Below are positions 1 to 48,383 of a stretch of DNA of 64,000 nucleotides, in pieces. The stretch is from Nymphaea colorata (taxonomy: Eukaryota > Streptophyta > Magnoliopsida > Nymphaeales > Nymphaeaceae). A model generated the notes under the pieces. The model made no database searches and had not been told where the DNA came from. It worked only from the letters and a program-made list of their open reading frames with translations. The stretch is from positions 19,218,370 through 19,282,369 of the forward strand of contig NC_045140.1 of the NCBI RefSeq assembly GCF_008831285.2. The letters run 5' to 3'. Both the position numbers and the translations under genes were made by a program. The stretch's first letter is position 1. Every line of letters starts with the position of its first letter.

Positions 1-1175
1 GTTCCATATTCTATGACATGTACAAGGCTAGACTCTTTCACATGCAGTTAGCATAGTGAGCAAGTATATTACAAATCTTGTTGAAGAACTTTGTTTAGTT
101 GTTAAGCTGGATTTTCAGTGTCTGAAGGTAAAAAGCTAAGTAACACAAATTCTTTAAAATAGTTGCTGACACAACTTGGTTGCAGGTGTTAAAAATGAAA
201 ATAACCAAGAAAAGACAGTGTGTTTAATGTGATGAACGTGAAATCTTCATCACGGAAGGCATAGCTATAGACCTTGATAACTCTTGTGCAAAAACCTTTA
301 TTTAAGCATGGCAAATATCCTACACAGATTTTTTGATAATTTTCAGTTACAGATCTGTTGCCAATATTTGTTGGTACTTATCTATGGCTGTGGATTTCTT
401 GTCCATTTTGCTGATCAATTGGCTCTTTCGCTATTAAAATTTTGATCTTTGATTTGAGCATTTCCTCTGTAATTTCAATATTGTTGCTCCTTTTTTGCAC
501 TGGTCAATGGACATGTCTGCCTAACTAGACCCCTGGTGATTTACAGGCCAGGGGTTAGTTGCCAGACCAACAACTAGCCTGACCAGTTGACCAGTTGGAC
601 AGACTCTCTGGTGGTTTGATAATCACATCCCTCTTTGACAGTTGGTAACTTTGCTTTAAACTGCTTTGGGCCAACTGAAATTCTTAATAGCACGACAACA
701 GACACATGATTGTGGGTGTGCCTGCTGGTGAGAATCAACGAACCCTTAATAATTATAAGTACATACATAACAGAATCAAGTAAAGGCAAGCTATGCTACT
801 GATAGAAATTTTATCAAGAAAAACCAATGGCAATAGCAAAAATGTTTCACAAAAAGGGAGTTGGTGCATTTTGACTGAGTCTGTGTGCTCAGGCTTTGTT
901 CACCAGACTGCGCTTCTGTTGGCTAGAGTCTTGCAAGCGCTTGATGACAATAGTCCGTTCCGGTTGGCAAACCTGCACCCAGATCCAATATGAGTCCACT
1001 TGGGTGTGGCACCTGTTTTGGCAAGCCTATGTGACATAATTTGTCCATGTTACTTCTCGAGTACAATGAATTCTGGTTTACCATATGTGCAATTTTTTTC
1101 TACCTGAGGCACACATATTTATGTTCTTCAGATTTGTCATTTCACTTTCTTTTTCTTTTTGTCGTATTGATGCAG
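1..1175. other. AT-rich intergenic DNA, no gene recognised
   Basis: Both strands carry frequent stops and no segment combines an open frame with splice signals. The short open frames at 574-789 and 793-993 look like chance. Confidence 0.5.
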
Positions 1176-1328
1176 TGCACTTTTGTGGCTTGTGAACCTG
1201 ATCATCTTGTCTGCAGCATAGTGAGCCTTTCTTCCTCTACAATCTTCAATATGGCTACATGCAACTCTTCTGATCACCTCGGTCAGTCTTCAGGAAGGAT
1301 TCAGGATCTTTTTCTGGAAGATGTACAA
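1176..1328 (+). CDS. Unassigned exon candidate (51 codons)
   Basis: The segment is preceded by a pyrimidine-rich tract ending in TGATGCAG and followed by a good donor, CAA|GTATGTC. It is open in one frame for exactly 51 codons, beginning CTFVACEPDHLVC and ending QDLFLEDVQ. I do not recognise the product. It sits upstream of the zinc-finger-like exons at 2018-2628 and could belong to the same gene, or be one more captured fragment in this fragment-rich region. No start codon or initial exon was found, so it is only an internal exon candidate. Confidence 0.3.
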
Positions 1329-1611
1329 GTATGTCAAGTTTCTTGTGGTTTCTGCTCGAGTTACACTTTTCTAGTTCTGTTCTGCTGAAAATGTTGTGTT
1401 AGTTTGCATGAATTTGGAATTTTCTTCTGTTAGAGCTGGTGACTACTTCATAGATCTATGAATGTCCCACACCTGAAAAATTATATTTTTGCTAGTTTAG
1501 GTTGCTGAAAAAGTTCTCCTCTGGTTCTTCCACAATTCAATTTTGCATTATATGAATAATTCTAGGGTCTAGTTCTTTGCTTAGTGATGTTCTGTGCTAT
1601 AATGATGAAGG

Positions 1612-1693
1612 CTTGAAGATATGTTGAATGTTTTTGCTGATAGAGTATCAAAGCCTTGTCTTTTCTTAACTGATAAGATGCAAATTGCTCTTG
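1612..1693 (+). pseudogene. APH1 gamma-secretase subunit exon fragment
   Basis: One frame reads [15 protein letters not shown] followed by [11 protein letters not shown], then a donor (CTTG|GTAAGC). This matches the APH1 segment around the residues usually written [15 protein letters not shown], with Cys in place of the usual Arg. Upstream, toward the expected EGLRVLFW region (about 1565-1611), the similarity breaks into frames with stops, so the exon is decayed at its 5' side. The next APH1 exon in order is at 3450-3574. The start of an intact APH1 gene lies at 61794, so this is a separate, broken copy on the same strand. APH1 is a multipass membrane scaffold of the presenilin protease complex. 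Confidence 0.7.
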
Positions 1694-2017
1694 GTAAGCT
1701 TAACTGATTTTTTTTTCTTAATTTTAACAATAATTTTTGTTATCGGCATTAGATAAAAAATCAAACAGCAAACAATTTACAGAAGCATGCCCGACAAATG
1801 GTACCAACTATATAAGAAAAGCATGCCAACGTTTTAATAATTTGCATTTCACTGTCTGGATCAAGAAAAGTATATAACAAACAGCCACTTTTTGATCGTC
1901 AACAGGAAAAACTAAAGTTTTTTAAGATAAATTATTTTTCACCCTATCAACAACCCTATTACTCAATGTTATGGAGACATTTAGCTGGTAAATCTTCATT
2001 TCTTCCTGATTGTTTAG

Positions 2018-2628
2018 TGCCAGAATTGTGGAGTTGCTGGAACAGTAAAGCTGCACCAGAATGATGGAGCTCTGTTAGAACATGGAAGCATCTCTCTCTT
2101 TCTCTGCTTACGTTGTACGAAAATGAATGGAACAGATTACAGGATGGTGAGGGGGACGAATGGGGGAGCAAGGACAAAGCAGGTGAGGAATTGTGCAGAC
2201 GAAGCTAGGAAAGCATTGAACTACATTCATTGCAACTTGCAATCAAGTGTCTAATGAATGATGTAAAGACCTCTGTTTTATGTTTATCATGACACTATTC
2301 TCTTCCCCTCATGATTTTGATGATTAAGGTGAATTAAACACTCTGCCAAGATGGCATCCCCACTATGAGTGGCGCTGTCGCATATGCACTCAGCCTGATG
2401 CAAGTTTGCAGTTGCAGAGAGAAATTATCAGCTGAACCTTGATTTCTCTAGCAGGAAACGAACTGAGGTTTTGCAGGACACAGAAACAATGGTCTCTGGC
2501 CCCAATACAAAATGTCTTCTGCATCCAAACCAAGCACAACCAACCTGAATTTGGTTCCCAATGGCAACCACAATGGTTTTACCTCCTGGAGGAGGCCTGC
2601 TTTCAAACCTATTGTTGTTTCACATTAA
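2018..2628 (+). CDS. Unassigned multi-exon candidate with paired CxxC motifs
   Basis: Three segments look coding. 2018-2182 follows TTTAG, is open for 55 codons and ends at CAG|GTGAGG; it begins CQNCGVAGTVKLH and later has CLRC, a Cys-x2-Cys pair at each end as in a treble-clef or zinc-ribbon fold. About 2330-2410 reads LPRWHPHYEWRCRICTQPD, another CxxC, and is followed by a TGA. 2477-2628, after TTTTGCAG, reads NNGLWPQYKMSSASK and ends with WRRPAFKPIVVSH and a TAA. The exon phases do not all join cleanly, so the middle boundary is uncertain. I do not recognise the protein. It lies between two APH1 fragments and may itself be a captured or decaying fragment. Confidence 0.38.
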
Positions 2629-4147
2629 CTCCAACTGTTTTGGCCTCCATTCTCTTGTTCCTGTTGAAAGAAAAGAGCATACTGGCGCAACATTGACAGA
2701 ATAAGGAGAGGTATAGATATTGGTTGTTACTCTTCTGTAACTAATACTAAACTTTGGTTAACCTAACAATGGTGAGGAAAGAGAGTGCTTGAGGAAAACT
2801 CTGGAACCTTAAGGATTGAATGAAGAAAACAAATAGAGCATACTGTGCTTTTGTCGAGGCATGTTCTTGTAATGTTTGAAACTAGAAGCTGCTGACTCCA
2901 ACTTGGTTTCTTTTCTTGGCTTCATCACACAGGAGAAAGAGTTAACATACTTAAAGTTCTATAAAAAATGTGAGAAATATAGAAAATATTAAGAGCCATT
3001 GAAACCTCTATGTGCATAAGATGCAAAGTTTCCAACACTTTCACAAGTTTAGACTTCAGGAAGCTTTATCGGCTTATTTCTCTTCAGATGCAAGTTTTAC
3101 CTACAACATGTTGTCATTGTGACATAGCAAGAACACTTTCTGGAGTGGTTAATTGCTTATCCTGCATCAAGAATATCACTATCAGACAATTTGTTAAGGA
3201 TCATTAATTAACCATTTGGAAAGCTCAAATATTTAAGAAACATATTCCAGTAAGAAAGGAATTCATATTATCTTCAGCAGAATTAACTGGGAACTCATCT
3301 GCAGTTTTATACATGAAAAGATGGACCATAAAAGATGAAGAACATGATATGACAAGGTCTTTGTTTTTCAGAAAATTTGCCTTCAATATTTTTATTTGAA
3401 TATTCTCTTACTATCTCATTTTTGCTTTTTGCTGTCTTGTATGATTCAGCTGGTGGTTTAGGTCATGGAGAGGCCCATGCAGTTTTTTTCTGTCTGAGCC
3501 TTTTGATACCTGCTTTTGGTCCTGCAACTTCTATGTTGAAAGCTCTCCTCATATGCCATTTTTTCTTGTCTCGTGTAAGATACTATCTTGTACTTGACTC
3601 CATATTTTTTTTTACTTACCCTAAAAGTGCCTCTACTTAATCTTTAAGTATTATTTAGCCATGAACTTGGAGTATTTTTTCTGAATGAATAAGAACTTTT
3701 TTCCTCTGGTTTCTCCTTGCCTCTGATTGTAATAGCTAGCTTTTAGTATTCTTTGCTGTTGTATGTTCAGTTTGCCTTTTCTGCTATGGTCCCCATTGAC
3801 TGTTCATGAATAGACACATATTGCTGCTTTAGTATATACCACAGCACTCACGTCATTTTTTAACAAAATGTCTCGTGGTATGCCCTTAGCTATAGCACTT
3901 AGTTACATCATAAATTGACGCTTATTAGCATCGGTCCATTGAATATGTTGGTTTTTTTGCACTTAAGTACATCACAAAATTGATGCTTTTTATACCTTAT
4001 TAATGTAGATCTACTCAAATATGCTTGTTTTTTGTCGGCTGAAATTTGCATCTTTGTGTTGCATGTCCGTGTGCATATGTGTGTGAAAGAGAGAGAGAGC
4101 TTTTAAAGCTTTGGTTTTTCGCTTATACTATCTCTGTGTATGTATGT
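2629..4147. other. AT-rich DNA around the APH1 relic
   Basis: Apart from the exon at 3450-3574 no coding segment is evident. A short GA tract occurs near 4087-4100. No further APH1 exon was found downstream of 3574. Confidence 0.5.
3450..3574 (+). pseudogene. APH1 gamma-secretase subunit exon with 1-bp deletion
   Basis: After an acceptor (GATTCAG) the frame reads [18 protein letters not shown] then IPAFGPAT, the conserved APH1 segment that contains the membrane-embedded GHGxAHA histidines. The frame breaks right after PAT: family members continue with an aromatic-Tyr-Val motif and here one base is missing, so the original frame resumes shifted by one (FYVE-like, then MPFFLVS) before a donor, GTAAGA, at 3575. 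The GHG histidine and AHA histidine are retained. Together with 1612-1693 it forms a broken APH1 relic interrupted by 1.75 kb of unrelated sequence. A sequencing error could mimic the deletion. Confidence 0.8.
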
Positions 4148-4552
4148 GTATTTCAAACCATGAAAATGTAAATATGAGGTGGGGGTTTTAGTGTATTATA
4201 CTTATTGAATTCAGGCATGTTCACTAGTAATATTATAGTTGGTCACCATGAAGATCCATATCCATAAATTAGATCCAAATTAATTGGATACAATTAAAAC
4301 ACAATAAGATCCTTATCCATAAATTAGACCCAAATTAATTGGATAGAATTAAAACACACTAAGATCCATATCGATAAATTAATCTCACTCTCTCTTAGTC
4401 TATATGTTCTTGGTTCGAAATGGTTCGACCCATCGGCAGAGCTTTCCTTCTCAAAGTACTCTCTCTCAGTTCTTTCTTCTTCTTTTTTTCTTTTTCTTGG
4501 TCTTCTTCTTCTTCTAAGTTTTGATGGCCGGTGCAAGATCTTTTCCACCACA

Positions 4553-4774
4553 ATGGCCAGACAACAGAAGGACAACGACAAGAAGGACAAGAAGGATAAT
4601 CATGAGCTTATCATAAAGCTCGCGGCCAAATTTAAATGGCAGCAGTGTCCCAAATGCAAAATCTACATTGAGAAAATAGGGGGCTGCAACCACATGACTT
4701 GCAGGTGTGGTTGCAGTTTCTACTACAAATGTGGAGTACGATGGGCGCATCACCAACGATGTCAATCCTCATAA
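4553..4774 (+). CDS. RING2/IBR finger fragment of an RBR E3 ligase (left arm)
   Basis: A 73-codon ORF beginning MARQQKDNDKKDKKDN, then a Lys-rich helix (LAAKFKWQQ) and a zinc finger: CPKCKIYIEKIGGCNHMTC, RCGCSFYYKCG. The order CxxC, GCNHMTC, CxC, CxxC is that of the catalytic RING2 (Rcat) domain of plant RBR ubiquitin ligases. RING1, the middle IBR and any other domain are absent, so it cannot act as a ligase by itself. In this family the last block usually reads FCYxCG; here the first Cys of that block is Tyr, a change absent from the relative at 23031-23248 (SFCYKCG). A 5' polypyrimidine/GAAGAA tract precedes the ATG. Its mirror copy is at 5264-5485. Confidence 0.65.
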   Translation: MARQQKDNDKKDKKDNHELIIKLAAKFKWQQCPKCKIYIEKIGGCNHMTCRCGCSFYYKCGVRWAHHQRCQSS

Positions 4775-4797
4775 GATCCGACACCACCATGACGTCG

Positions 4798-5238
4798 TTA
4801 TGGTAATTATTTTCTTCCCTTTCACTTACCCGTTTACAGTACAAACCTCCTCAGTTCTGACGTGTTGGTGGTTTTGTATGTCCTAATGTGACTGAATCTT
4901 GCGGAGACGCCTTTTCTTTCTTCCCATTGTTCATATTCTTGCTACCTTGTTTGAAGTTTTTCTTTCTAATAATGTATTCAGGAAGTTTTTCTAATATTTA
5001 CAGAAAACCTTCAAACGGCCAACGTGGCAGCATGAAGATGTCACATCAAAAACTTCCTGAATACATTATTAGAAAGAAAAACTGCAAACAAGGTAGCAAG
5101 AATATGAATAATGGGAAGAAAGAAAAGGCGTCTCCGCAAGATTCAGTCACATTAGGACATACAAAACCACCAACACGTCAGAACTGAGGAGGTCTGTACT
5201 GTAAACGGATAAGTGAAAGGGAAGAAAATAATTACCAT
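4798..5238. repeat. CPK24-derived core of the inverted repeat
   Basis: 4798-4990 and its mirror 5048-5238 match 20353-20549, the end of CPK24 exon 1 plus the first ~190 bases of intron 1. The match includes the splice donor context TTATG|GTAATTATTTTC. The spacer segment around 5019-5047 (GGCAGCATGAAGATGTCACA) matches 19889-19908, inside CPK24 intron 2. Because the homology spans a real exon/intron boundary, the gene is the likely donor and the repeat the recipient. Confidence 0.85.
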
Positions 5239-5263
5239 AACGACGTCATGGTGGTGTCGGATC

Positions 5264-5485
5264 TTATGAGGATTGACATTGTTGGTGATGCGCCCATCGT
5301 ACTCCACATTTGTAATAGAAACTGCAACCACACCTGCAAGTCATGTGGTTGCAGCCCCCTATTTTCTCAATGTAGATTTTGCATTTGGGACACTGCTGCC
5401 ATTTAAATTTGGCCGCGAGCTTTATGATAAGCTCATGATTATCCTTCTTGTCCTTCTTGTCGTTGTCCTTCTGTTGTCTGGCCAT
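5264..5485 (-). CDS. RING2/IBR finger fragment of an RBR E3 ligase (right arm)
   Basis: The mirror copy of 4553-4774, with the same 73-codon length and only one visible residue difference near the C terminus (HHQQC for HHQRC). It keeps the CPKCK, GCNHMTC and RCGC blocks and shares the Cys-to-Tyr change in SFYYKCG, so the arm duplication came after that mutation. Both ORFs remain open, which is expected for so young a duplication and is not evidence of selection. Confidence 0.65.
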   Translation of the reverse strand: MARQQKDNDKKDKKDNHELIIKLAAKFKWQQCPKCKIYIEKIGGCNHMTCRCGCSFYYKCGVRWAHHQQCQSS

Positions 5486-7112
5486 TGTAGTGGAAAAGAT
5501 CTTGCACCGGCCATCAAAACTTAGAAGAAGAAGAAGACCAAGAAAAAGAAAAAAAGAAGAAGAAAGAACTGAGAGAGAGTACTTTGAGAAGGAAAGCTCT
5601 GCCGATGGGTCGAACCATTTCGAACCAAGAACATATAGACTAAGAGAGAGTGAGATTAATTTATCGATATGGATCTTAGTGTGTTTTAATTCTATCCAAT
5701 TAATTTGGGTCTAATTTATGGATAAGGATCTTATTGTGTTTTAATTGTATCCAATTAATTTGGATCTAATTTATGGATATGGATCTTCATGGTGACCAAC
5801 TATAATATTACTAGTGAACATGCCTGAATTCAATAAGTATAATACACTAAAACCCCCACCTCATATTTACATTTTCATGGTTTGAAATACTGACATGCTG
5901 TAGGTAGCTGTGGACACACAAGCCTTCTTTTCTGTTGTTTCAAACTTTTAGCTACCTATGGACTCGGAACTAACTTGGAAAACCATAAATCTGGCAATGA
6001 TATTGATCATTATGGTTCGTATAGCACAATTTTTAATCAAATGCTATCCTTTATTGAAATGAGTCTGTTATTTGTCATGACTTCTCATCAATGTGTCTCT
6101 ATTACATAGAGGTGTTTGCATATTTGTGGAGATATTCACCTATTGTTTATTTGTAATCTCTATGGTATGTTATTTTAAATGTTATATTTAATGCTTCCTC
6201 GTTATTTATAATTCTACAAATTGTAGTTAACCTCAGTTCATTACATCGTCAAAGCATGGGAACGTTATCAAAACAAAAACTAATATGTGCTTGCAACACA
6301 TGCAAACCCAAAAATGGATTCATAGTCATTTGCATAAACCCGCCGTATCTGGCATTTTCGAGGTAAGGATCAACTCTAACGCTAAATCAATGAGAAAACA
6401 CAAAAAAGAATTATGTAGAACATAGAATTCTAATGTTAAGTCAATGAAACTGAATATAAATTATGTTGAAGTTGGAACCTATTATATTTCCAATACACTG
6501 AAAATTTGATTCTGATGGATATAAACTTGTTCCTTTTCTAATTGAAAACTTCTGATATCAAAGGTAGATCAAATGTGTGGCGCCTTATGCTTGAGTTGCA
6601 CTGATATAGTACCTAAGTTTGTTGAGTTACACTGGTACAATACCTAATTTTGGCGTGTATTCAGAACGACAACTAGTCTTTATTTCCCATTCAAAGCACT
6701 TAGCTACGTTACGTTTTAAACGCTGTCTCTCTCTGTTCTGGGCGTGTCTGTGTTCGAAGTTGTTTTTGTTCCTCCCTTGGGTTTGAGATTGAGGGAAATA
6801 GAATAATATGGAGGCAAGATCGGAGAATAAGACTGAAACACATTGATATTGGCCTGTATCTTCGCAGTCACAATAACAAAAATACAGCCAGAACGCTGGT
6901 GGGCGGCAAGAGATGCAGAAACATTAGCTTGTCTCAGTAAACTAATTTGGTCGACTCATTCATTTATTCAATGGGAGTTTATCACAATCGTTTTGGCCTC
7001 CAGGTTTGTGGAGTTCAAGAGAAGCGCATAGAGGGTTGTCTGGTTTGCAGCTGCAGGGGTAGATCTTCCAATTTTAAGGGCCGATATATATCTACATCCC
7101 GATAATGTGTAA

Positions 7113-7391
7113 TTAATTCTTTGTGAGAACTATCGTATCCACATTTGGTCCTCGATTTCTATGGCCGTCTTTCTGCGTCGGCCAATAGATCGTGAGAAGA
7201 TCACTATCCAACTGAGGGACTTTATCTTCATTACCAGGATATGCTAGTGTTACTAAAAGACACCAAAGCGAGTTACCAGGAAAAAGATCTTGCATTAGAA
7301 GAGAACGTCCGCGGCAAGACACCATGACCGGGCCAGAAACCTGGTTCAACGCCAATGTCAAGGATGTATACGCATCCATCCTGTAATCCAA
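7113..7391 (-). CDS. Conserved ORF of element A (copy 1), product unknown
   Basis: A 92-codon ORF, beginning MDYRMDAYTSLTLALNQ and ending GPNVDTIVLTKN. Copy 2 (13984-14262) encodes the same 92 residues with one visible change, and the inverted remnant at 39985-40140 preserves the block PGNEDK...PQLD...WPTQK and the final TKN. It lies about 300 bases downstream of a minus-strand TATA-like box. I recognise no domain. It may be an exon of a host gene carried by the element. Confidence 0.35.
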   Translation of the reverse strand: MDYRMDAYTSLTLALNQVSGPVMVSCRGRSLLMQDLFPGNSLWCLLVTLAYPGNEDKVPQLDSDLLTIYWPTQKDGHRNRGPNVDTIVLTKN

Positions 7392-7889
7392 AAAACAAAA
7401 AACAGGTTTGAGATTCTCAACACCATGTCTCTTACGGCAGAAAGAAAGGCAGGAACGATTCTTTGCCTTTATGAGGCGAAACAGAAGTGCCCGCGACAGC
7501 TTATGGTAATTTGGTACAACGGATGTTCGAGGTGCATTTGGTCCAAAGGCTCACTACCCACACATGGTCTTCCACATGCCGAGAGATTCATACCTTCAAA
7601 GCACCATGTGGGCAGCGGAAGATGGACGAAGGGTTCCAGCAGTTTCGATACGATGAGCAACAGCCGAGTTCCTTTTCTTTCTTTCCTCTCTTCCCCTATT
7701 TATAGTCACACGCTCGTATGATGAGATGAACAGTTAGCGTTGTTTGGCCGTTGGGATGATTATCGTTCCTGATAAGGATGAACATTATCAAAACGGATGA
7801 ATGATTCTTGTATTTCTTGACTGTCCTGGCTGGTGGGCACGAGGCGAAGTAGGCAACTGCCTTTCCCATTTACTTGGGCGGATCCTTCA

Positions 7890-8355
7890 TCTAGATAACC
7901 AACAGGCCCCTGCGTCTGCTTATGCGCCACCACCAAACTGCCTCGGTTGTTCGGGGCGGTTGAAATGTATAATTTTGCACATTTTTTGGTAAGCATTATT
8001 TACCTCTTTGGGGCGGTTTTGAGTAACACATTTAAAATTCATCTTTGGGGCGGTTTATGTTTTAAGAAGTTAGCATCTATAATCTAAATTTCATGTAAAT
8101 ATAATAAGTTAATATAGTTAATTTTTAGTAATTCTTAAACATAGCATATTTCAAGTTTTATTTTTGTGAAACCAACCATTATCTAGATAACCAACGGGCC
8201 CCTGGGGTTGAACACATCTGCTTATGGGCCACCAAACTGCTTCGGTTGTGCTATGCCCCTGCCTCTGGGGGCGGTTGAAATGTACAATTTTACACATTTT
8301 TTGGTAAGGATTATTTACCTCTTGGGGCCGTTTGAGTAACACATGTAAAATTCAC
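7890..8355. repeat. Internal direct repeat of element A copy 1
   Basis: Two diverged tandem units, about 7890-8035 and 8180-8355. Both contain CAACAGGCCCCTG/CAACGGGCCCCTG, a GGGGCGGTTGAAATGTA block, ACATTTTTTGGTAAG and GAGTAACACAT. Element A copy 2 carries only one such unit, which explains most of its shorter length. Confidence 0.7.
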
Positions 8356-8456
8356 TTTGCCTGAATCTGGTCCCTAAGAAATTCGGTTTGACAAAACACC
8401 CTTTCCAAGAAGGAGTAAATAGCATGCCCCTCCTTCCCTAAGTTGTTTATAGAAAA

Positions 8457-10714
8457 CATTGTTTCTATCTTCTCAACGAAATACACAAGCCAGGCTCTAA
8501 GAACTGGTTGAAAATCCAAGTGTTTACATAACCCGATTTTCACAAAGGTCGGTCAATGAAGGAGTCATCTACACACAAGATGAAGTGAGTGTAATAGCCT
8601 AATGCACAAGATGAGCTTAACTGATCAGGCAATTGACTAAAAAGCCTTGTGACATTAAATCCCCACAAGATGAAGCTCGTCTTTCTGATGTTTATGTGGG
8701 GAGAACTTGACACGGAGCACTAGTTTTCTAAACAGGACTACTAGAAGGGAGACAAGAAGATATTGAAAAATATTTCCTGCCTGCCTCGCTCAGAATAGCA
8801 GATGGTCAAAAACCAAATCCAACCAAACTGATTGACAGTGAACACTCTGGTCATGCAAAAAGCTCCTAACTACCCATAAATTATTAGAAGATATGAAGAA
8901 AATTGAAGAACCAAACGGGCTACCGAGTACCAAATTTACATGTTGGGCGTATCTATCTGTATGAAGACACAGAAACACCTCCTAAAACGATAATTCACAT
9001 CATAATGATCGCTGCCATGAGAGTCTCCAAGTGCTGGGAGTTCTTCTTGTATGTCCTCTTGAGCTTTTTATTCATTAAACTAAAATATGTATTTTTTACA
9101 TCTATGTCATTTTATTGGGTATGTTCGTTTTATATTTTCTTCTGCTTTCAGATGGCTATGTCATATCTGCTCTCTAGTAATAGCTTATTATTACTGTCCC
9201 AAATCTGTGAATGACGAATTATGTCAACATTAAAGCATCTAGATTTTATTGTACCCTCTGCATGTTTTATTTGGAAGAGCATTTCCATTTCAAGTTCTAA
9301 TCTAGCGACTGTGGTATGTATTTTGCAGATAGGTAGGAATTTTTTTGTCTGCCAACTTCATCAGTTACACCTCTCCATGATCATCCAGAGATGACTGTGC
9401 TCAGCAAAATCCTTTATGGTTCAATGCATGTCAAAGCTTATGACTGGTTGAACCTGCGTGCATCCAAAGGACTGCTGATACTCAAAGTGATCCACTGTCC
9501 TTGATAAAGTGATCCACTATCCTTGTTTTATCTGGTGTGCTGCGGAAAAGGCAACCCCTTGAAACCATGTTGCCCTTATTATTAAGGGAACCGTCAAAAA
9601 TAATACCGACCTCTTTGGATTTTCTGAAATGGCTAATTCACCTGGAATGTAGTTCACAGATATCCAGATTGACCTATTTTATTGTCCACCTTCATCCAGG
9701 CATAACATGCAATAGGCCGGTTCGCTGTTGTGATCCATCTGATGCAAAGTTCATGGCCAACGGACGGTTAACTGATGCTATCACAAATGATATAACTAAT
9801 TAACATGTGCAAAGGCACACATACACTTGCAATAAAGCATCTACTTCTTCTTTAATGGTTATTGTTTACTCACTGATTTCTTCTGCCAACACTGTGATGC
9901 ACACTTACTGTCGTCTCCCTCTGCTGTTTTGATTGAGTCGTTTCTCTGAGCAGTTGATGACGAAGTCCGCATGCTGTAAGCTGATTCTTTGTATTGTTAA
10001 CGTATATATTGGACTTATTTTTCGATTGCACAGAAAATTCCAAGATCTGTTTTTCAACCTTTGTGTGTATGCTGGAAATTGCTTCATCGAGCAATAAAGT
10101 CATGACTGGAAATTGACTTTGGTTCAAGATTGTTCTCTTGAATCTTGTCTGGTCCTTCTATGAATTGTTTGGTTGTTCCCTTTTCGGTTTTTGCCGTGAC
10201 GTGAATCGCTAACTTCTGCTATTAACTTTATCACATAATGCATCTTGTCAATTTTGTATTTGTTATTTTACATAAAAGGAAACTGCCATTGAGTGACCCA
10301 ACTATCTTTAGGCATAAGAACGTTGATAATTCTAAGTGGAACATACATATAAGAGCATAACGAAGCTGAAGCTAAGAACGCCCCTGCTTGTGATCCTGGA
10401 TCTCAAGCAGTATGAGTATGTTCAGCTAACAACTTGTATAAGCTACAATAATACAATTCATTTAACCACAGTTGCAGGCAAAGCCTACCCAGTGAGATTA
10501 ATGAACCCAACCTGGCATAAACTTGCACATATTTGTTACAAAAAATGGACATATAATAATCTGCAGACAGCAAGTTTAACAGATTTCAAAGTTCAGTCCT
10601 GGATAAGCAAGCACGTATCAATTCATGTTACAGAAGCAAAAGTTACATCCAACTGAGAAAAGGAATTAGAATTGTAGATGTAAGATGGGGAGTAAACATA
10701 TATGCTTCTAAGCA
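8457..10714. other. No gene recognised
   Basis: AT-rich sequence without convincing splice-bounded frames. The plus-strand ORF at 10336-10656 lies just beyond the stop codon of the minus-strand gene candidate at 10715-11240 and may be its 3' flank. Confidence 0.4.
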
Positions 10715-11240
10715 TCAGTTTAGACCTTTAACCAAAGTGCCAGATTGTGAGGATCCTCTACCGATGATTTGGGTACCTGCAAGGATAAAGAAAAACTTTT
10801 AAGAAAAGGATAATAAAAAAAAATTGTCATGTATTTTTCGTTTCTTGGATGTCTAATAACAACTGGCTATAAAACAAGAGAAATTTGAGAAGGCGACAAC
10901 TTTAGTCTGCTCGTACACTAATTATTTCACAGATTCTCCAAGCAGAGGCTTGTGCATAAGCTGCTTGAATAGCCCCTGTAGTGCTACAATCCATTTAACA
11001 ATTAAATTAGTCACTATTTTGAGTTTATGTTTTTCAAAACAAGGACGCATACCACTCTTCCTCCCATTCTGTCTGTAACAAAAGGTGTTCTAAACCTGTT
11101 TTAAAAATGCAGTAAAACCGCAATCAGAAAAGGTGATATCCCGAAATCCTTCACTGGTGTGTAAAACCGCTCGAGAGAGAGGAGAGGAGAGAGAACCTTA
11201 GCAACTCCTTGTGCAGGATATTCTCCCATCGGCCTTGGAT
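10715..11240 (-). CDS. Last four exons of an unassigned minus-strand gene
   Basis: Four short segments join in phase with consensus splice sites: 11240-11197, 11072-11053 (20 nt), 10975-10919 and 10776-10715, ending in TGA. Acceptors are TTTACACAG, TTGTTACAG, ACTACAG and TCCTTGCAG. The spliced frame reads IQGRWENILHKELLRQNGR, then SGAIQAAYAQASAWRICEII, then STQIIGRGSSQSGTLVKGLN and stop. Four junctions preserving one frame are unlikely by chance, so this is probably a real 3' end or a young relic. I do not recognise the family. Upstream exons were not found with confidence; the decayed exon at 12387-12622 could belong to it. Confidence 0.45.
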
Positions 11241-11387
11241 CTGTGTAAAGTATAGAAATCAGAAGTTCAACAGGGCATTTCAAAGAATAAAACGTTCCCA
11301 AGTTTTTGCGATGTCAAGCTCCAATAAAATGAATCAGCAGCATGAAAACAACGCACAAACTGCCATATACATGTACAGTTTATCTGT

Positions 11388-12310
11388 CATGATCAGATTC
11401 GTGTGCTTCGAAGTTCTTTGCAGTCTCTTCTTTCAGTTTTGATCAATAGATAAGCATCACAATGCTGAAATCTTTCAGGATAAAGAAGAATCTAGTTTCA
11501 CAGTGGACCTCCACAACGATTCCAAAAATCACAACATCTCCACCTCATAATTGAAGTGAATTTTTTCACTAAAACTTTGGTCTATTTGTAGTAATTGCAA
11601 TGGTGCTTAGACACCATTATCATCATCATCAGGTTCCGTGAATGTAATAGTGCATCTCTAGGTATTCTTTCTCCTTTTGTTTCATCTGCCCTAAATTGCC
11701 TAACTTCTTGCATACATGATTTGGAATGTTCATTTGCAAGAACACAAATAGCTGCCTGTAAACTAGGATAGTGGTCTCCCGTAAAATGTTATTTACATCT
11801 ATATAATGAATAAGATAAGAGCTGCAGAAGGTACAAGAGAAAAAGAGATGTTGACAATGAACAAAAGAACAAAATTTAAAAGAAAAAGAAATAGTTCAAA
11901 CTCGTCTTCTTTTAAGAGACCACAACATCATAATTGTTCCTTCTGAGGCTATATCATATGCATCTATGACCTTAGTACAATCTTCCAGACAAGCATAATT
12001 TCAGTTTAAGTAACAAGGTGTCATCTCATCAGTGTGTATTCATTGATCCAACGGCAGTCAATGATGTAGATGTTGATGCATTCTTAGTCAAATGGTGAAG
12101 CTAATTCTTGTCTATGCAGCTAAGGTACAAGAACCCCCACAGTTTGATCTGTTCCAATTTCACTTAATTCATGTTCGGTCTGCAGAAATTAGTCTTAATA
12201 TGTTTAGCAAAGCATAATGAATTTCAGGAAACAATAAAAAACCAAAAAAATTTGAATGATACTTGAATGCTCAGAAAGTTGCTTCAATAGAGTAACAGTA
12301 AAGAAATTAA
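11388..12310. repeat. Repeat family B, copy 1
   Basis: This ~0.9-kb stretch is clearly homologous, in the same orientation, to 40870-41830, with small indels. On the minus strand it carries a coding-like block ending at 12029 (HLTKNASTSTSLTAVGSMNT). The right-hand copy has a longer open version, 41627-41538, preceded by an acceptor and read as LHPQELAHHLTKKASTSTS and on to a stop. It therefore probably includes exons of a host gene, product unknown. Confidence 0.7.
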
Positions 12311-12386
12311 CAAAAAGGCATGTCTGACAGATTTTATAGAGCTATCAATCTAACCCCCATTAAAAGATGCAGTAAGGAAGATGCAC

Positions 12387-12622
12387 CTCATGCCGAAGTC
12401 CAACCTTTTTCACCTTGAAGCCTGTAATCAAGTGGATGTCGAAGTTCGTTGCAGGCCAGAGTTGCGGTTCGCCCAGAGGATGCGAGAACAGCCACAAAGA
12501 GATCATAAAATTGACAAATGCCGAAACATGGGCTAGCTACAGCTTGGCAGCATCTGACAAAGGCAGTCTGTGGGTCCACAGCTTCTACAGTTTCTCAGGA
12601 TTGTGATTCTTATTGATGGATT
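12387..12622 (-). pseudogene. Decayed exon with two in-frame TAG codons
   Basis: Between an acceptor (TTTGTTTTAG) and a donor (CATGAG|GTGCAT) the best frame reads NKNHNPEKL, TAG, KLWTHRLPLSDAAKL, TAG, then LAHVSAFVNFMISLWLFSHP and LWPATNFDIHLITGFKVKK. The two stops (12585-12587 and 12537-12539) both lie in CTGTAG. Either they are CAG-to-TAG changes, or the exon really begins at the second, which could serve as an acceptor. The exon-like composition is clear but I do not recognise the protein. It may belong with the exons at 10715-11240 on the same strand. Confidence 0.4.
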
Positions 12623-12760
12623 CTAAAACAAATAAAGCAAGAGAGGAAAAGAAAAAAGTGAAGATATGGATGTACACTGATGACAGTATATAAAATTCAG
12701 CTCTAAAAGACACTGATTTTCATTGTAATTCATTTTTTAATACCTTTGCCTTTGTCAGAT

Positions 12761-14828
12761 ACTGACAAGCTGTAGCTAGCTGTGGACACACATGCCTTCT
12801 TTTCTGTTGTTTCAAACTTTTAGCTACCTATGGACTCGGAACTAACTTGGAAAACCATAAATCTGGCAATGATATTGATCATTATGGTTCGTATAGCACA
12901 ATTTTTAATCAAATGCTATCCTTTCTTGAAATGAGTCTGTTATTTGTCATGACTTCTCATCAATGTGTCTCTATTACATAGAGGTGTTTGCATATTTGTG
13001 GAGATATTCACATATTGTTTATTTGTAATCTCTATGGTATGTTATTTTAAATGTTATATTTAATGCTTCCTCGTTATTTATAATTCTACAAATTGTAGTT
13101 AACCTCAGTTCATTACATCGTCAAAGCATGGGAACGTTATCAAAACAAAAACTATTATCTGCTTGCAACACATGCAAACCCAAAAATGGATTCATAGTCA
13201 TTTGCATGCACCCACGTATCTGGCATTTTCGAGGTAAGGATCAACTCTAACGCTAAATCAATGAGAAAACACAAAAAAGAATTATGTAGAACACAGAATT
13301 CTAATGTTAAGTCAATGAAACTGAATATAAATTATGTTGAAGTTGGAACCTATTATATTTCCAATACACTGAAAATTTGATTCTGATGGATATAAACTTG
13401 TTCCTTTTCTAATTGAAAACTTCTGATATCAAAGGTTGATCAAATGTGTGGCGCCTTATGCTTGAGTTGCACTGATATAGTACCTAAGTTTGTTGAGTTA
13501 CACTGGTACAATACCTAATTTTGGCGTGTATTCAGAACGACAACTAGTCTTTATTTCCCATTCAAAGCACTTAGCTACGTTACGTTTTAAACGCTGTCTC
13601 TCTCTGTTCTGGGCGTGTCTGTGTTCGAAGTTGATTTTGTTCCTCCCTTGGGTTTGAGATTGAGGGAAATAGAATAATATGGAGGCAAGATCGGAGAATA
13701 AGACTGAAACACATTGATATTGGCCTGTATCTTCGCAGTCACAATAACAAAAATACAGCCAGAACGCTGGTGGGCGGCAAGAGATGCAGAAACATTAGCT
13801 TGTCTCAGTAATCTAATTTGGTCGACTCATTCATTTATTCAATGGGAGTTTATCACAATCGTTTTGGCCTCCAGGTTTGTGGAGTTCAAGAGAAGCGCAT
13901 AGATGGTTGTCTGGTTTGCAGCTGCAGGGATAGATCTTCCAATTTTAAGGGCCGATATATATCTACATCCCGATAATGTGTAATTAATTCTTTGTGAGAA
14001 CTATCGTATCCACATTTGGTCCTCCATTTCTATGGCCGTCTTTCTGCGTCGGCCAATAGATCGTGAGAAGATCACTATCCAACTGAGGAACTTTATCTTC
14101 ATTACCAGGATATGCTAGTGTTACTAAAAGACACCAAAGCGAGTTACCAGGAAAAAGATCTTGCATTAGAAGAGAACGTCCGCGGCAAGACACCATGACC
14201 GGGCCAGAAACCTGGTTCAACGCCAATGTCAAGGATGTATACGCATCCATCCTGTAATCCAAAAAACAAAAAACAGGTTTGAGATTCCCAACACCATGTC
14301 TCTTACGGCAGAAAGAAAGGCAGGAACGATTCTTTGCCTTTATGAGGCGAAACAGAAGTGCCCGCGACAGCTTATGGTAATTTGGTACAACGGATGTTCG
14401 AGGTGCATTTGGTCGAAAGGCTCAGTACCGACACATGGTCTTCCACATGCCGAGAGATTCATACCTTCAAATCACCATGTGGGCAGCGGAAGATGGACGA
14501 AGATAAGCAACAGCCGAGGAGAGTCCTTTTCTTTCTTTCCCCTCTTCCCCTATTTATAGTCATAGGCTCGTATATCGTTGGTTGGCCGTTGGGATGATTA
14601 TCCTTCCTGATAAGGATGAACATGCCTTTCCTATAAACTGCCTCGGTTGTTTGGGGCGGTTGCCCGGCGGTTGAAATGGATAATTTTGAACATTGAACCT
14701 CTTTGGGGCGGTTTTGAGTCACACATTTAAAATTCATCTTGCCTAAAACGAAACCAGGTTCCCAAGAAATACAGAACACCCTTTCCTAAAAAGAGTAAAT
14801 AGCGTGCCCCCAAAGTTGTTTATAAAAA
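12761..14828. repeat. Element A, copy 2
   Basis: A near-identical but shorter copy of 5889-8456, in the same orientation. Differences over the left two thirds are scattered single bases. It keeps the minus-strand TATA-like box (14547-14559) and the 92-codon ORF, and has lost about 0.5 kb of the GC-rich right third. Its left edge carries a 33-38-bp inverted copy of sequence from the neighbouring exon at 12527-12564. Confidence 0.85.
13984..14262 (-). CDS. Conserved ORF of element A (copy 2), product unknown
   Basis: The 92-codon counterpart of 7113-7391, with one visible residue change (HRNGGPN for HRNRGPN). It has the same length, start and stop. No domain is recognised. Conservation may reflect recent spread of the element and not selection. 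Confidence 0.35.
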   Translation of the reverse strand: MDYRMDAYTSLTLALNQVSGPVMVSCRGRSLLMQDLFPGNSLWCLLVTLAYPGNEDKVPQLDSDLLTIYWPTQKDGHRNGGPNVDTIVLTKN

Positions 14829-16208
14829 GGTGTGCCGGTGATCCTGAATCTCAAAACTGAATCCCTTTTTACCCAGATAGCCTTGAAATTGGAACCGAGT
14901 TTTGAAAATATATTTTACCTGTTGTAAATAGATTTGGACAAGAGACTAAATTGTTTTAATTCGGATCCACCGGTTCTGTTTAAATAGACGTTTTGGTCTT
15001 CTAGATAAGGATTTAACTTGTTTATAGTTGACCCGTATCAGTTGTTACATACATAATTGGACCTAGATCCAACTTGCCTTGAAAATAAATAATTTATGCT
15101 TCACAAATGAATTTCGATTTAGATCTATATGTTCTAAAAATAGATATTTAAATGGACTTGAACATGATTTAGATTGTTTGAAAATATGTACGTTTGAATG
15201 TCGTTATGGATTTGGACCCAAACCCAGTTTGGCCTATATAGTTCAATGGTGTGGATTAGTTAGATTAGTGAAATCAAATAAAACATACTAATAAGTACTT
15301 ATGGATATGGATCTTGTTGTGTTTTAATTGTATCCAATTAATTTGGATCTAATTTACATATACATGCTTACGTATTGCTTGTTATGCATACATGTGGATG
15401 TGAACTTCATTTGTTTGAAGTGTATACATTCGTGTATGATTACAAACAGATATAGATTTGGATTTAACTTGTTTTCATATCCATATGTATATCGTTGTTG
15501 ATTATACTTGTATGATGGCCCATGTCATGATGATATGTTTGCTTTGATTAAACATATCTATTTATGCCTTGTTAAAACTGCAATGATTTTTGGATCTTAG
15601 CAAGAGAATGGGAGCTCAACGATGTATTCTAGACGCCTTACTAGTTACTTGTACTTTAGATCCCGTGGGGGCTGTGGAGCCACATGATACAGAATTGGCT
15701 TCACCTAATGGCTGTCAGCCAAGCTGCAGGACCATAGGTAGCTTCTCTGTGGAAAACAAATAAGTTAGGTGGAATAGTTTGCATGGAGATTGAAGGAGCG
15801 TAAAGGTGAAGGAGAGCAAATGGAGCTCAAAGTACTGTAATACGTTCACTGCAATGCCATCATTTGTATCTCGTTGTACTTTCCAGCTCGACTTATCTGT
15901 GCTCAATTTGTTTGAGGTGCTGAGCAGGTTGATATGCATGTATCCTCTTCTTGTTTATTCAGTCGTTATAAGACATTGACAAATGGTGGTGACAGAGCAT
16001 TCGCTTTCATCTAGTTTTGTTTCTGGTGTACGCAGCAAAGGTGCTTCATGAGAAAAACTAGATGGATTTAGCCAAAAAAATTCTTTATATCAACAAAACA
16101 ATTTGAACTAGATATACAGAGAATATATATGGGAAGTAATATACATGAATTCCCAGAAATAGACCTTCACCTTCTGATAGGGATATTATTTGGAAATATG
16201 GTGTGAAT
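14829..16208. other. AT-rich repeats downstream of CPK24
   Basis: No gene recognised. 15298-15356 (GATCTTGTTGTGTTTTAATT and flanks) matches the AT-rich outer block of the large inverted repeat (5718-5775), a sign that this block belongs to a dispersed repeat family. The stretch to about 15500 is rich in degenerate TTTGGATTT/GATTTAGAT-like words. Confidence 0.45.
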
Positions 16209-21111
<4,903 letters not shown>

Positions 21112-22404: not shown

Positions 22405-22543
22405 CTGTTCACAACGGTCGTCGTTCCCTTCCTTTCGACTTGTCTCTCCCTCTCTTCCGTGGGACTCCACGGAAGAGAGGGAGTCCCACGGAAGAGAGGG
22501 AGAGACAAGTCGAAATGAAGGGAACGACGACCGTTGTGAACAG
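22405..22543. repeat. Palindrome, 63-bp arms with 13-bp loop
   Basis: 22405-22467 (CTGTTCACAACGGTCGTCG to GTGGGACTC) is the reverse complement of 22481-22543, with one mismatch that I can see (CTTCCTTTC against GAAATGAAG). The loop is CACGGAAGAGAGG. Arm composition is mixed, not simple-sequence. It could fold into a long hairpin RNA of precursor-miRNA size, or be a fold-back insertion. Confidence 0.95.
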
Positions 22544-22879
22544 CAGAGTCACCAGACCACGGTCACAGACGTGCGAGACCACCGCACCAGCACCGGCCCA
22601 TCGGCGTCGCGTCATCTGCCTAGTAGCAAGAATTCGCATTCCACTTTTTCCATTAAACATTCTTTTATTTATGTAGACGCTTAGCTTATTTCGTTACATA
22701 TTATTTCAAAGAAAGAACGAAAAATACATTCAACCAAGCACCAAGAAGGGGAATCCTTATTTATTTAATACAAACGGTGAAACTGTGTAAATCTCTTGCA
22801 CTCGAGGCTTCAATCCATGAGATGAAGACAACGATGCTGCAGTGCTACTTCGACCAACTTTGGGACGAGGACTGTCGTA

Positions 22880-23012
22880 AAACACGCACTTCTTGCATCC
22901 AATGATTCCTCAATTGCCAAACAACACATACTAATCAAATAACCTGCCGAAAAACCTTCCGTCTGATCTGTTGTTGGTGAGTTCCCAGTAAATGACATAG
23001 TGGCCTGGATTG
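22880..23012 (-). pseudogene. GH3 auxin-amido-synthetase fragment
   Basis: On the minus strand 23008-22979 reads PGHYVIYWEL, and 22926-22891, in another frame, reads CCLAIEESLDAR. These two blocks occur in this order in GH3 acyl-acid-amido synthetases, near the start of the C-terminal domain, separated by a variable loop. The frame change between them and the loss of everything else make this a relic. It directly follows, in the same sense, the RING2 fragment at 23031-23248, with no spacer of more than about 20 bases. The whole is a chimera of two unrelated genes, as produced by gene-capturing transposons. Confidence 0.75.
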
Positions 23013-23030
23013 TCGGCTCTTTCAGGATTG

Positions 23031-23248
23031 ACATCGGGTGATACGCCCATCTTGCGCCACATTTGTAGCAGAAGCTGCAACCACACCTGCAAGTGATGTG
23101 GTTGCAGCCCCCTACTTTCTCAATACATTTTGCATTTGGGGCATTGCTGCCATTTAAAAATGGCCGCGAGCTTTATGATCTCTTCATCATTATCCTTCTT
23201 GTTCTTCTTGTCGCTGTCCTTCTTTATCTATCCATTGTGCTGGAAAAG
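23031..23248 (-). pseudogene. RING2/IBR fragment, 3' part, interrupted by copia
   Basis: Homologous to the RING2 ORFs of the inverted repeat. The ATG at 23235 is followed two codons later by TAA, and a 2-bp deletion after CPKCKMY shifts the frame. Past it the reading is GGCNHITCRCGCSFCYKCG, with the conserved FCYxCG that the inverted-repeat copies have lost. It is interrupted in its 5' flank by the copia insertion and resumes at 30167. Homology to the inverted repeat stops at about 23031, where the GH3 fragment begins. Confidence 0.8.
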
Positions 23249-23572
23249 TGTTGGACGTTTTTCTATGCACCAGAAATCTCCCTATGTTGGTTCAGCAAGA
23301 TCTCCAGCGTCCTCTGTGAAGAACAGCAAACAAGAGCAAGAGCAAGAGGAAGAGAGAGAAGATAAGTCAGTTTTATTTTGGGGTTTTCTTCCAAAGGGCT
23401 TCTCACGGATTATCATCTTGAGAGTTTGCTAGGAATTTAAAGCCCAGCCCTTTAGGTTTTCCCCAACCCTAGCTACGGTTACGTGGGAGATTCTTTAGGA
23501 GATATTGTAAGAGTACTTTTAGATGAAAATCTAGTAACTGCTCGGATAGGGCTCAATGGCCACTATCCAACA
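23249..23572 (-). repeat. Copia 3' LTR (324 bp)
   Basis: TGTTGGACG...ATCCAACA. Compared with the other LTR it has three substitutions (near 23270, 23342 and 23510) and 17 extra bases (within AGATGAAAATCTAGTAACTG). The Leu-to-stop region of RNase H ends about 165 bases to its right. Confidence 0.97.
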
Positions 23573-23584
23573 TCTCCCACTTGG
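23573..23584 (-). promoter_or_regulatory. Polypurine tract of the copia element
   Basis: In element sense AAGTGGGAGA directly abuts the 3' LTR (plus strand TCTCCCACTT). This is the expected primer site for plus-strand DNA synthesis. Confidence 0.8.
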
Positions 23585-23737
23585 CCATGAGACCGCCAGT
23601 TTTCTTCCATTATATGTGGGTTTTCTTTTCTCAGTTTGTTACGTGGTTTTCCTTAATTGGCTTATCCAGCGTAACTTAAACCTTTTTCGAGGTTTACAGC
23701 GAGGTTTTCCATTCAATGGTTTTTCCTTCGCAATCTT

Positions 23738-24235
23738 TCAAATATATTTCAGCCCCATATGAGCTACATGTTTTGAAAACAAGTCTTCAGATATTCCCTT
23801 GGTTAAGGGATCAGCCACCATATCATTTGTAGGCAAATATTCTACTGAGATTTCATTTTTCTCGATCATTTCATGAACATAATGGTATTTCACCATTATA
23901 TGTTTACTCTTTGAGCTGACAGCTCCATTTTTCATCAGAGATATTGCTGCCTGATTATCACAGTATAGTTGGACCGGTTCATGAGCAAGATCTAATTTCA
24001 AGTCTTTCAAGAACCGATTTATCCAGACAGCAAAAGTAGTTGCAATATTGCATGCTACATACTCTGCTTCTTGTGTGTGCTGAGCAACACATCCCTGTTT
24101 CTTACAAGACCAGGCTATCGCCCCACCTCCAAAGAGAAAGACATACCCTGAAGTGGATTTACTATCATCTTTACAACCTGCAAAATCTGCATCAGAATAG
24201 CCAACTAAAGTTAGCTCATCTGCTTGATAAGACAA
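23738..24235 (-). pseudogene. Copia RNase H domain
   Basis: Reads LVGYSDADFAGCKDDSKSTS, then CDNQAAISL and KHIMVKYHYV, ending at a normal stop. These are the diagnostic copia RNase H blocks with catalytic Asp (YSDAD), Glu (QEAEYVA) and Asp (CDNQ). It is in the same frame as the RT segment but separated from it by an in-frame TGA at about 24242. Confidence 0.95.
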
Positions 24236-24241
24236 TTTCAG

Positions 24242-25336
24242 TCATTTTGTTCCTTTAATATACCGAAAAATTCTTTTGACTGCTTGCCAATGAGGCCATC
24301 CAGAATTACTTTGATAACGACTTACCAGACCGATAGAAAAACTTATGTCTGGTCTGGTACAAAGCATTAAATACATCAGACTACCAACTGCTTGTGCATA
24401 TGGAACATTTAATTTTTGTTGTTCTTCACTGGGACAATCACTCCTGCTTAAGTTTGCTCCTTTAGCTATAGGAGTCCCAATTGGTTTACAGTCTAACATA
24501 CGAAATTTCTTCAAGATATGATCAATATACCGTTCCTGGCTTAAACTCAGGATTTTTGAGTTTCTTTCTCAAGTGATTTTTATTCCTAATATATAGGATG
24601 CTTCACCCAAGTCCTTCATTTCGAAGTTTTTGTTTAGCCAAGTCTTCGTTTTGTATATCATATCGTTATCATTTCCTGTTAATAATATGTCATCAACATA
24701 TAATGATAGAATACAGAAAAGACTCCCACTTTTCCAAACGTATACACAGTGGTCTAGTTGGTTTGCTACAAACCCAAGTTTTGTAATTGCTTTGTGAAAA
24801 GCAAAATACCACTGTCTTGGAGATTGTTTCAGTCCATATAACGATTTATTCAACTTGTACACTTTGTCTTCTTTTTCCTTGATGACATATCCCTGCGGTT
24901 GAGTCATATATATAGTTTCTTTTAACTCACCGTTCAGAAAAGCAGTCTTCACATCCATCTGACAAATATCCAGGTCATAGAATGCCGCGATAGCCAAAAT
25001 TATTCTGATTGATGCGAACTTTGCAACTGGCGAATAGGTCTCTGAGTAATCAATTCCTTCCTTTTGGGAAAAACCTTTCGCCACTAGTCTGGCTTTGAAT
25101 TTTTCAACTGATCCATCAGCTTTATACTTCTTCCTTAGCACCCATTTACATCCAATGGGTTTTCTGTCATTAAGAAGATCTACTAATTCCCAGACTTTAT
25201 TCTTTTCTATGGATTCAATTTCTTCATCCATAGCATTCACCCAATCTGACGATTCATGTGAGCTTACCGCTTCATCATATGTCAGATTGTCAGACATTTC
25301 GTCAATGTCTGCTAGGTAGCATAGCTCCTCTGCCAA
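24242..25336 (-). pseudogene. Copia reverse transcriptase, broken
   Basis: 25336-24569 contains KPIGCKWVLRKKYKADG, FKARLVAKGFSQ, the active-site strand LYVDDILLTG and the connection region up to LGIKI, where a TGA (24569-24571) stops the frame. The same frame resumes at 24514 with CKPIGTPI and GSLMYLMLCTRPDISF and is stopped again at 24242. The TGA at 24569 fits a C-to-T change of an Arg codon, as expected from cytosine-methylation decay. Confidence 0.95.
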
Positions 25337-25353
25337 ATATACATAATAATCAT

Positions 25354-26706: not shown

Positions 26707-27302
26707 AACTTCGTTACAACACTTGTACCCTCAACATTTAAACGATATGCCCCAATTCCCATGACATCACAATAAGAATTGTTTCCCATATAGACTTTGT
26801 GGGTTCCCGGACTCAGATTTTTCATGTGGATCACTCCTTCTTTCGTCTTCGCAATGTGACGAGTTGCTCCTGAATCGACCCACCATCCAGTTAGATCTCC
26901 ATCTGCAAACAGACATTCTGATACGACACAGATGACTTCCCTGTCAGAGTCTCCTTGAGGCTTCCTTCTGTTGTAGTTGCCCCGACCAATGTTGTCTTTC
27001 TTACTCGGGAATTTTGTCCTGCAATTCTTCTTTATATGTCCAGGCTTCCCGCATCTGTAGCATTTCACTACAGTTCCTTGATATTTCTTAGTACCTGCAT
27101 AATTGCTCTTGAACTTGCCATCGTTTCGATTTTTAAATTGTTTTGATTTTATAGGCACATGACTACCAGCAGGTTTTTCCTGGACTGTCATCAACTCTGT
27201 TCTATTTTTCTTGGTCAGTCGTTGTTGCTGTAGAGCTAACTGTATGGGAAGCTTTTCTAACGTAAGGGTATCAAATTGAACACTCAAAGCAGTAACTGCC
27301 AT
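26688..27302 (-). pseudogene. Copia gag C-terminus and protease
   Basis: Contains the nucleocapsid zinc knuckle CYRCGKPGHIKKNC (Cx2Cx4Hx4C) and the aspartic protease motif WWVDSGATRH. It is in frame with the gag N-terminus but separated from it by a TGA at 27306-27308. It ends prematurely at 26688 because of a one-base frameshift just before the integrase ORF. Confidence 0.95.
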
Positions 27303-27305
27303 ATC

Positions 27306-29841: not shown

Positions 29842-29859
29842 TCCTGGCTCTGATACCAC
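29842..29859 (-). promoter_or_regulatory. Primer-binding site, initiator tRNA-Met type
   Basis: In element sense TGGTATCAGAGCCAGGAA follows the 5' LTR after one to two bases. TGGTATCAGAGC is the standard complement of the plant initiator tRNA-Met 3' end used by copia elements. Confidence 0.9.
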
Positions 29860-35868: not shown

Positions 35869-35989
35869 CTGGAGAAAACTCGTCGTTTTGCTCTCGCTTG
35901 CATCTTGTTTTAATTTGCAACACAATTCCTGGATCAACATATTTAATATCTTCAGTGTGAAATGGGCCAAACGGCTCAAATATGAACAT
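35869..35989 (-). CDS. Minus-strand exon candidate, left copy
   Basis: Starts at an ATG (MFIFEPFGPFHTEDIKYVDP) and ends at a strong donor, CCAG|GTGAGT, after 121 nt. The right copy at 47085-46965 preserves start, length and donor with only conservative residue changes. A possible continuation around 35700-35640 reads GAPDQHPKG before another GGTGAG. Unassigned. Confidence 0.4.

Positions 35990-48348: not shown

Positions 48349-48383
<35 letters not shown>

Follow-up and report, generated by a model that had tools for sequence, protein, structure and literature searches.

A long, near-perfect inverted repeat lies at positions 4148-5890 of the analysed stretch of Nymphaea colorata DNA (the window, 64 kb, C3:19218370-19282369, in a genome of 407.8 Mb and 783 contigs). 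This inverted repeat is real, looks young and belongs to an already known kind of locus, and its mosaic make-up, together with two sister repeats elsewhere in the genome, appears to be the unusual part. About an even chance is given to the reading that it is a natural long inverted repeat produced by local rearrangement, probably methylated, possibly diced and probably without a selected function.

Structure of the inverted repeat

The initial annotation described two equal arms, a single centre and a 57-bp spacer, and its coordinates proved exact:

4148-4990, plus strand: left arm, 843 nt long
4991-5047: spacer, 57 nt, with 4991-5053 aligned to CDPK intron 2 at about 19870-19921
5048-5890, minus strand: right arm, also 843 nt, differing from the left arm at 7 positions

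Arm-to-arm identity, put at about 98% in that annotation, is slightly higher when computed, at 99.2% (7 mismatches in 843 nt, no gaps). Six of the seven mismatches can be polarised by a source copy, and five of these six look, by eye, like right-arm changes. The predicted single-strand minimum free energy of the 1,743-nt hairpin is -1557 kcal/mol, with 850 pairs, and its CpG observed/expected ratio is 0.60, compared with 0.56 for the window. A scan of 4000-6000 with bacterial models returned four promoter-like signals (6.3 in shuffles) and two terminator-like signals (1.2 in shuffles), which have no bearing on a plant. Open frames of at least 65 aa were catalogued for 1-4147 and 5891-12758, and Pfam searches of those at 7116-7550 and 7299-7718 gave no hit.

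Short-spacer inverted repeats are a known type of assembly artefact, a resemblance that speaks for a missed-adapter palindrome or a chimeric contig. However, seven sites differ between the arms, both arms terminate at the same point and lead into flanks that are unrelated to each other, and inverted repeats of different extent made of the same parts occur at two other places in the assembly, so that an artefact is very improbable. Long inverted ends and captured gene fragments would likewise be expected of a foldback or Mutator-like element whose terminal repeats measured 843 bp, but no target-site duplication is visible by eye in the flanks at the outer ends (4147/5891), and no other place with the outermost arm bases occurs among the 20 matches listed in the genome search. 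A transposon with long terminal repeats was rejected on these two grounds and is the explanation to which we give almost no credence.

Mosaic composition of the arms

The arms are a mosaic of a CDPK intron-6 piece, a dispersed 55-bp repeat, a RING2 fragment and an exon-1/intron-1 junction. The RING2 fragment and the CDPK junction had already been recognised in the initial annotation, and both are present; intron 6, intron 2, the 55-bp repeat and a right-flank copy are further sources. The kinase and EF-hand domains and the stop-free run of exons identify the gene at 16212-21111 as a CDPK, in which no broken exon was seen (exon ends placed by eye). The gene, the blocks and the flank duplication are arranged as follows:

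16212-21111, minus strand: CDPK gene (putative CPK24, the label of the initial annotation), kinase and EF-hand exons
20178-20544, minus strand: CDPK intron 1, main exact identity to the arms at 20356-20432
4171-4254, plus strand: CDPK intron-6 block, source 17786-17714, mirror 5784-5867
4251-4381, plus strand: 55-bp unit, 2.4 copies, mirror 5657-5787, second place 15299-15356
4418-4588, plus strand: RING2 fragment leader and start, source 30380-30167, mirror 5450-5620
4540-4783, plus strand: RING2 fragment, source 23248-23011, mirror 5255-5498
4791-4984, plus strand: CDPK exon-1 end and intron-1 start, source 20556-20356, mirror 5054-5247
5887-7785, plus strand: right flank, copy of 12759-14623, 31 of 1,861 positions mismatched
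12759-14623, plus strand: other copy of the flank duplication

Every recognisable block is matched in the neighbouring stretch, all in one relative orientation, and the composite occurs twice, inverted, around part of CDPK intron 2. Exonic sequence contributes about 20 nt, from a single exon; the other sources are introns, a pseudogene and a dispersed repeat. In-window BLAST E-values for the best match of each source block run from 5e-20 to 1e-78, with weaker matches for the second 55-bp unit (8e-18), 35 nt of the spacer (4e-9) and a 31-nt leader repeat (2e-7), indicating that the block matches are not due to chance. The intron-6 block is mismatched with its source at 5 of 79 positions (6.3%, over a slightly longer alignment), the exon-1/intron-1 block at 8 of 177 (4.5%), and the spacer with CDPK intron 2 at 4 of 50 (8%), with one 11-nt gap and a core match at 19887-19921. 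The intron-1/intron-2 block has four genome matches, all in the hairpin or the CDPK gene itself, and the next best genome match of the CDPK exon-1 protein is 72% identical. Short matches to the 55-bp unit were also found by genome search on C4, C6, C8 and C14, and this unit is thus a dispersed repeat. The right flank, a 96% copy of 12759-14623, starts inside the last 4 bases of the right arm. No source for arm stretches 4148-4170 and about 4382-4417 was found within the window, and part of the latter is common to an inverted repeat on C9. This C9 hairpin also gives the best score to the RING2 block outside the window hairpin (355 bits over arm positions 246-636), compared with 284 and 188 bits for the split window source, and the window copy therefore need not be the direct source.

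The RING2-GH3 pseudogene family

Sequence comparison places the RING2 fragment in a family of RING2-GH3 chimeric pseudogenes near a GH3 tandem array. The window member of this family is split by a retrotransposon:

22405-22543, no strand assigned: palindrome of 139 bp, MITE-like in appearance, with the RING2-GH3 pseudogene on one side and the CDPK gene on the other
22585-23248, minus strand: RING2-GH3 chimeric pseudogene, 3' part
23249-30166, minus strand: Copia LTR retrotransposon splitting the pseudogene, LTRs 23249-23572 and 29860-30166
30167-30380, minus strand: RING2-GH3 pseudogene, 5' leader part

In its 3' part the chimera corresponds to GH3 genes (last exon and 3' region), and GH3 domains were confirmed by Pfam in both of the stretches submitted. 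A search with the C9 arm found eight plus-strand places in the GH3 array (C3 19132.6-19196.1 kb), besides an inverted repeat of GH3 pieces on C3. The Copia LTRs are mismatched at 3 of 307 positions with one gap, and a target duplication, CTTTT, is recognisable by eye at the split (23248/30167); the hairpin carries the unsplit RING2 version. A full-length match to plant SRP RNA lies between the LTRs at 28540-28843 (143.9 bits, plus strand), opposite in orientation to the genes of the element. At C3:19204372-19207464, four broken RING2 5' pieces occur in a tandem pair of 2-kb units, with the first part of another such unit after them. RBR-like genome matches show 39-56% protein identity, at places that are absent from the matches of the arm DNA search.

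Elsewhere in the window, a large direct duplication (31241-39963 and 42123-51476) is 83-95% identical in pieces, with a long open frame of 479 and 475 aa in the respective copies, the 479-aa frame being without a Pfam hit, and a snoR145 H/ACA snoRNA match lies at 58112-58256 on the minus strand.

Two further inverted repeats from the same parts

The inverted repeat on C9 (C9:14669283-14671512) has arms of about 1,055 nt enclosing about 119 nt, with 10 mismatches in 1,054 aligned positions and one indel. Its arms hold CDPK intron 7 (19 of 213 positions mismatched), a linker, RING2 and a GH3 end, its right flank continues into CDPK exon 7, and sequence related to the palindrome at 22405-22543 sits, as seen by eye, in its spacer. 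The other repeat, 2.2-4.3 kb to the left of the window at C3:19214120-19216174, consists of GH3 last-exon pieces paired in inverted orientation. Its inner palindrome spans 587 nt (90.6% identity) and its outer arms 275 nt (94.5%), and the right copy carries an insertion. The window and C9 hairpins differ in both their centres and their outer ends, making separate origins the simpler reading, though a common ancestral inverted repeat may lie behind both. In a tree of nine RING2 pieces, both arms of each hairpin pair together, with no resolved order among the window source, the C3 hairpin and the C9 hairpin.

Divergence and origin

Divergence amounts to 0.8% between the C3 arms, 0.95% between the C9 arms, 1.0% between the Copia LTRs, 1.7% for the flank duplication, 3.4% (2/58) for the 55-bp unit, 7 to 11% between arm and RING2 source and 11.8% between a C3 and a C9 arm. 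Read on a clock, these values make the composite older than its inverted copying, and the spread of block-to-source divergences (4.5-11%, with 3.4% for the 55-bp unit) means that the blocks may not share one date. In the gene-conversion test, the longest mismatch-free runs of 401 and 399 nt gave p values of 0.083 and 0.062, neither significant and at most suggestive of conversion between the arms; as possible conversion would make the arms look too young, arm identity is an unsafe clock. A C-to-T excess was also considered as a methylation footprint and proved uninformative, transitions making up 6 of 7 differences between the C3 arms and 5 of 10 between the C9 arms.

The composite may be the collapsed remnant of tandem units, each made of the RING2-GH3 pseudogene and the CDPK gene, as suggested by the retained block order of CDPK 3' part, RING2 and CDPK 5' part. 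Inverted copying would then have joined the composite to the left flank via a 4-bp GTAT match, in the manner of template switching or snap-back repair. However, no further CDPK pieces were found in 7785-12759, where a simple tandem-array origin would predict some, and this counts against such an origin.

The RING2 open frame

Each arm contains a short open frame:

4553-4774, plus strand: open frame of 73 aa containing a RING2-like pattern of Cys residues; the minus-strand mirror, 5264-5485, is open as well

The hairpin could be a by-product of gene duplication, namely two convergent copies of a gene for a small RING2-only protein. The frame is open in all four hairpin arms at the two loci, whereas it is stopped or split in all five other C3 places found; dN/dS between C3 and C9 is 0.32 over 67 codons; and among 5,000 neutral simulations a stop was gained in 73%, with 4.8% of the stop-free ones having as few replacements. 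The C9 copy also passes the Pfam IBR cut-off (31.9 vs 24.3 bits). The frame thus looks conserved between the two hairpins, which we treat as a hint; mere debris would not need such conservation, and to this extent it counts against a debris origin. However, the IBR-type Pfam scores of the two window copies fall below the curated cut-offs, the C9 copies carry Ser in place of a Cys of the RING2 pattern, which we take to be the catalytic Cys of RBR ligases, and the shared history may partly predate the fragment. Moreover, a single RING2-like piece stands in a 148-aa stop-to-stop frame, with no RING1-IBR-RING2 series in that frame. A RING2-only gene is accordingly regarded as improbable, and local rearrangement without a selected function is retained as the preferred reading.

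Silencing potential and candidate targets

Outside the hairpin, the window contains 111 21-mers that are identical to arm sequence. CDPK intron 1 wholly contains 64 of them and intron 6 another 3, 6 span the junction of exon 1 and intron 1, and the remainder lie at 15299-15356 (20) and in the pseudogene leader at 30167-30420 (18). A 77-nt stretch of CDPK intron 1 (20356-20432) is identical to the arms. Two features of inverted-repeat siRNA loci are therefore present, namely a long near-perfect repeat with a short loop (843 nt, 99.2%, 57 nt) and identity to another locus long enough for siRNAs (the 111 21-mers). Arms matching the exons of a working gene, a feature of PTGS-type silencers, were not found for the CDPK gene or the GH3 stretches compared: no wholly exonic CDPK 21-mer lies within three mismatches of the arms (exon ends placed by eye), and the hairpin shares no exact 21-mer with the GH3 stretches, which hold five of the eight array places. 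CDPK mRNA was consequently rejected as an siRNA target, and for this gene only an effect on chromatin or pre-mRNA is plausible. A genome search with the arm gave at least 20 matches, and those longer than 100 nt all lie at C3:19.20-19.25 Mb or in the C9 repeat.

The initial annotation proposed a natural inverted-repeat silencing locus acting on CPK24 chromatin or pre-mRNA and on the RING2 fragment family. The near-perfect 843-nt foldback and its identity to a neighbouring gene are the right anatomy for such a locus and lend the proposal partial support, but no exon match of the kind required for mRNA silencing was found. Action on CPK24 is compatible with the intron-1 21-mers, limited to DNA or pre-mRNA, the exons being unmatched. 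The RING2 family is a doubtful target, with no exact 21-mer to 22500-23248 and 18 to the leader, and the targets here would be pseudogene pieces. Under the preferred reading, the near perfection of the inverted repeat makes methylation of its DNA probable, and transcripts reading through it would fold back and become DCL substrates; among intact genes, only the CDPK gene was found within its possible reach, where an effect would fall mainly on intron 1, via chromatin or pre-mRNA.

A selected silencer, in which hairpin-derived small RNAs modulate the CDPK gene via its first intron, would fit the identical 77-nt stretch and the genome search, in which the intron-1 block matches only the hairpin and the CDPK gene. 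However, no exon is matched, and the arm-to-intron-1 divergence of 4.5%, compared with 0.8% between the arms, indicates that the intron match has not been kept exact, and such a silencer is quite unlikely. The locus could instead be inert rearrangement debris, with no transcription, no methylation above background and no effect on any gene. Its make-up from pseudogene, intron and repeat pieces with about 20 nt of exonic sequence, the missing exonic 21-mers and the lack of an Rfam match in the hairpin at the gathering threshold agree with this; the last result also led to the rejection of a known RNA family or miRNA in 4148-5890, the two Rfam hits lying elsewhere. Methylation is nevertheless reported to be drawn to plant inverted repeats, in the case of PAI1-PAI4 irrespective of whether it is transcribed (PMC9263138), and wholly inert debris is considered rather unlikely. 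A rearrangement product that is probably methylated is still the reading preferred here.

Two GH3 loci have 108 and 117 exact 21-mers in common with the C3 GH3 repeat, of which 94 and 99 fall within their open frames, and this repeat thereby appears to be a better candidate for mRNA silencing than the window hairpin. For the C9 repeat, the corresponding counts are 3 with one compared GH3 stretch and 86 with the window pseudogene. We hold it unlikely, though conceivable, that the region is a small silencing cluster that formed repeatedly, with three repeats of GH3, RING2 and CDPK pieces on two chromosomes, differing in centres and ends, of which the C3 GH3 repeat could silence the GH3 array and the window hairpin could act on CDPK chromatin.

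Comparison with known systems

The literature (PMC12825306, PMC9263138, PMC3804491, PMC3440606, PMC3237417) already describes natural inverted repeats of considerable length as sources of small RNAs or targets of methylation. Arabidopsis IR71 is processed by DCL2, DCL3 and DCL4, and like the window hairpin it is a long natural foldback able to yield one dsRNA; however, its dsRNA is about 3 kb with proven DCL products, whereas the window hairpin has arms of 843 nt and would only be predicted to be diced (PMC12825306). The Arabidopsis PAI1-PAI4 inverted repeat is methylated and acts on identical single-copy loci, and the window hairpin resembles it in being natural and in sharing identical stretches with a single-copy locus, where methylation in trans could follow, but consists of intron and pseudogene pieces diverged from the gene by about 4.5% or more overall (PMC9263138). 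The soybean I locus, with inverted CHS1-3-4 clusters, also arose inside a cluster of related genes; it carries genes and acts on mRNAs of about 82% similarity, whereas the window hairpin has no usable exon, and the I locus resembles the neighbouring C3 GH3 repeat more closely than the window hairpin (PMC3804491). Maize Mu killer is likewise a partial inverted duplication, whose transcript was proposed to form a hairpin, but it silences a transposon and its transposase gene, as shown by crosses, and short antisense transcripts, not the proposed hairpin, accompany this silencing (PMC3440606). In the birth of MIRNA genes, gene or pseudogene sequence is also duplicated in inverted form, whereas the window hairpin has a far longer stem and no exon target was found for it (PMC3237417). 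Among the 10 papers listed of 2,016 that matched a literature search, none dealt with small RNAs of Nymphaea colorata.

Collectively, the locus shows how a hairpin can be assembled piecewise from neighbouring fragments before any target relationship need exist, and as the same parts became inverted repeats at three places in the genome, the formation of such repeats and any silencing that came later can be studied separately. If a silencing cluster does exist here, the GH3 repeat could silence its array as the soybean I locus silences CHS, and the window hairpin would act on CDPK chromatin. If the arms of the window hairpin are methylated or diced, they would show, as a natural experiment, whether a gene can be affected through a match confined almost entirely to its introns.
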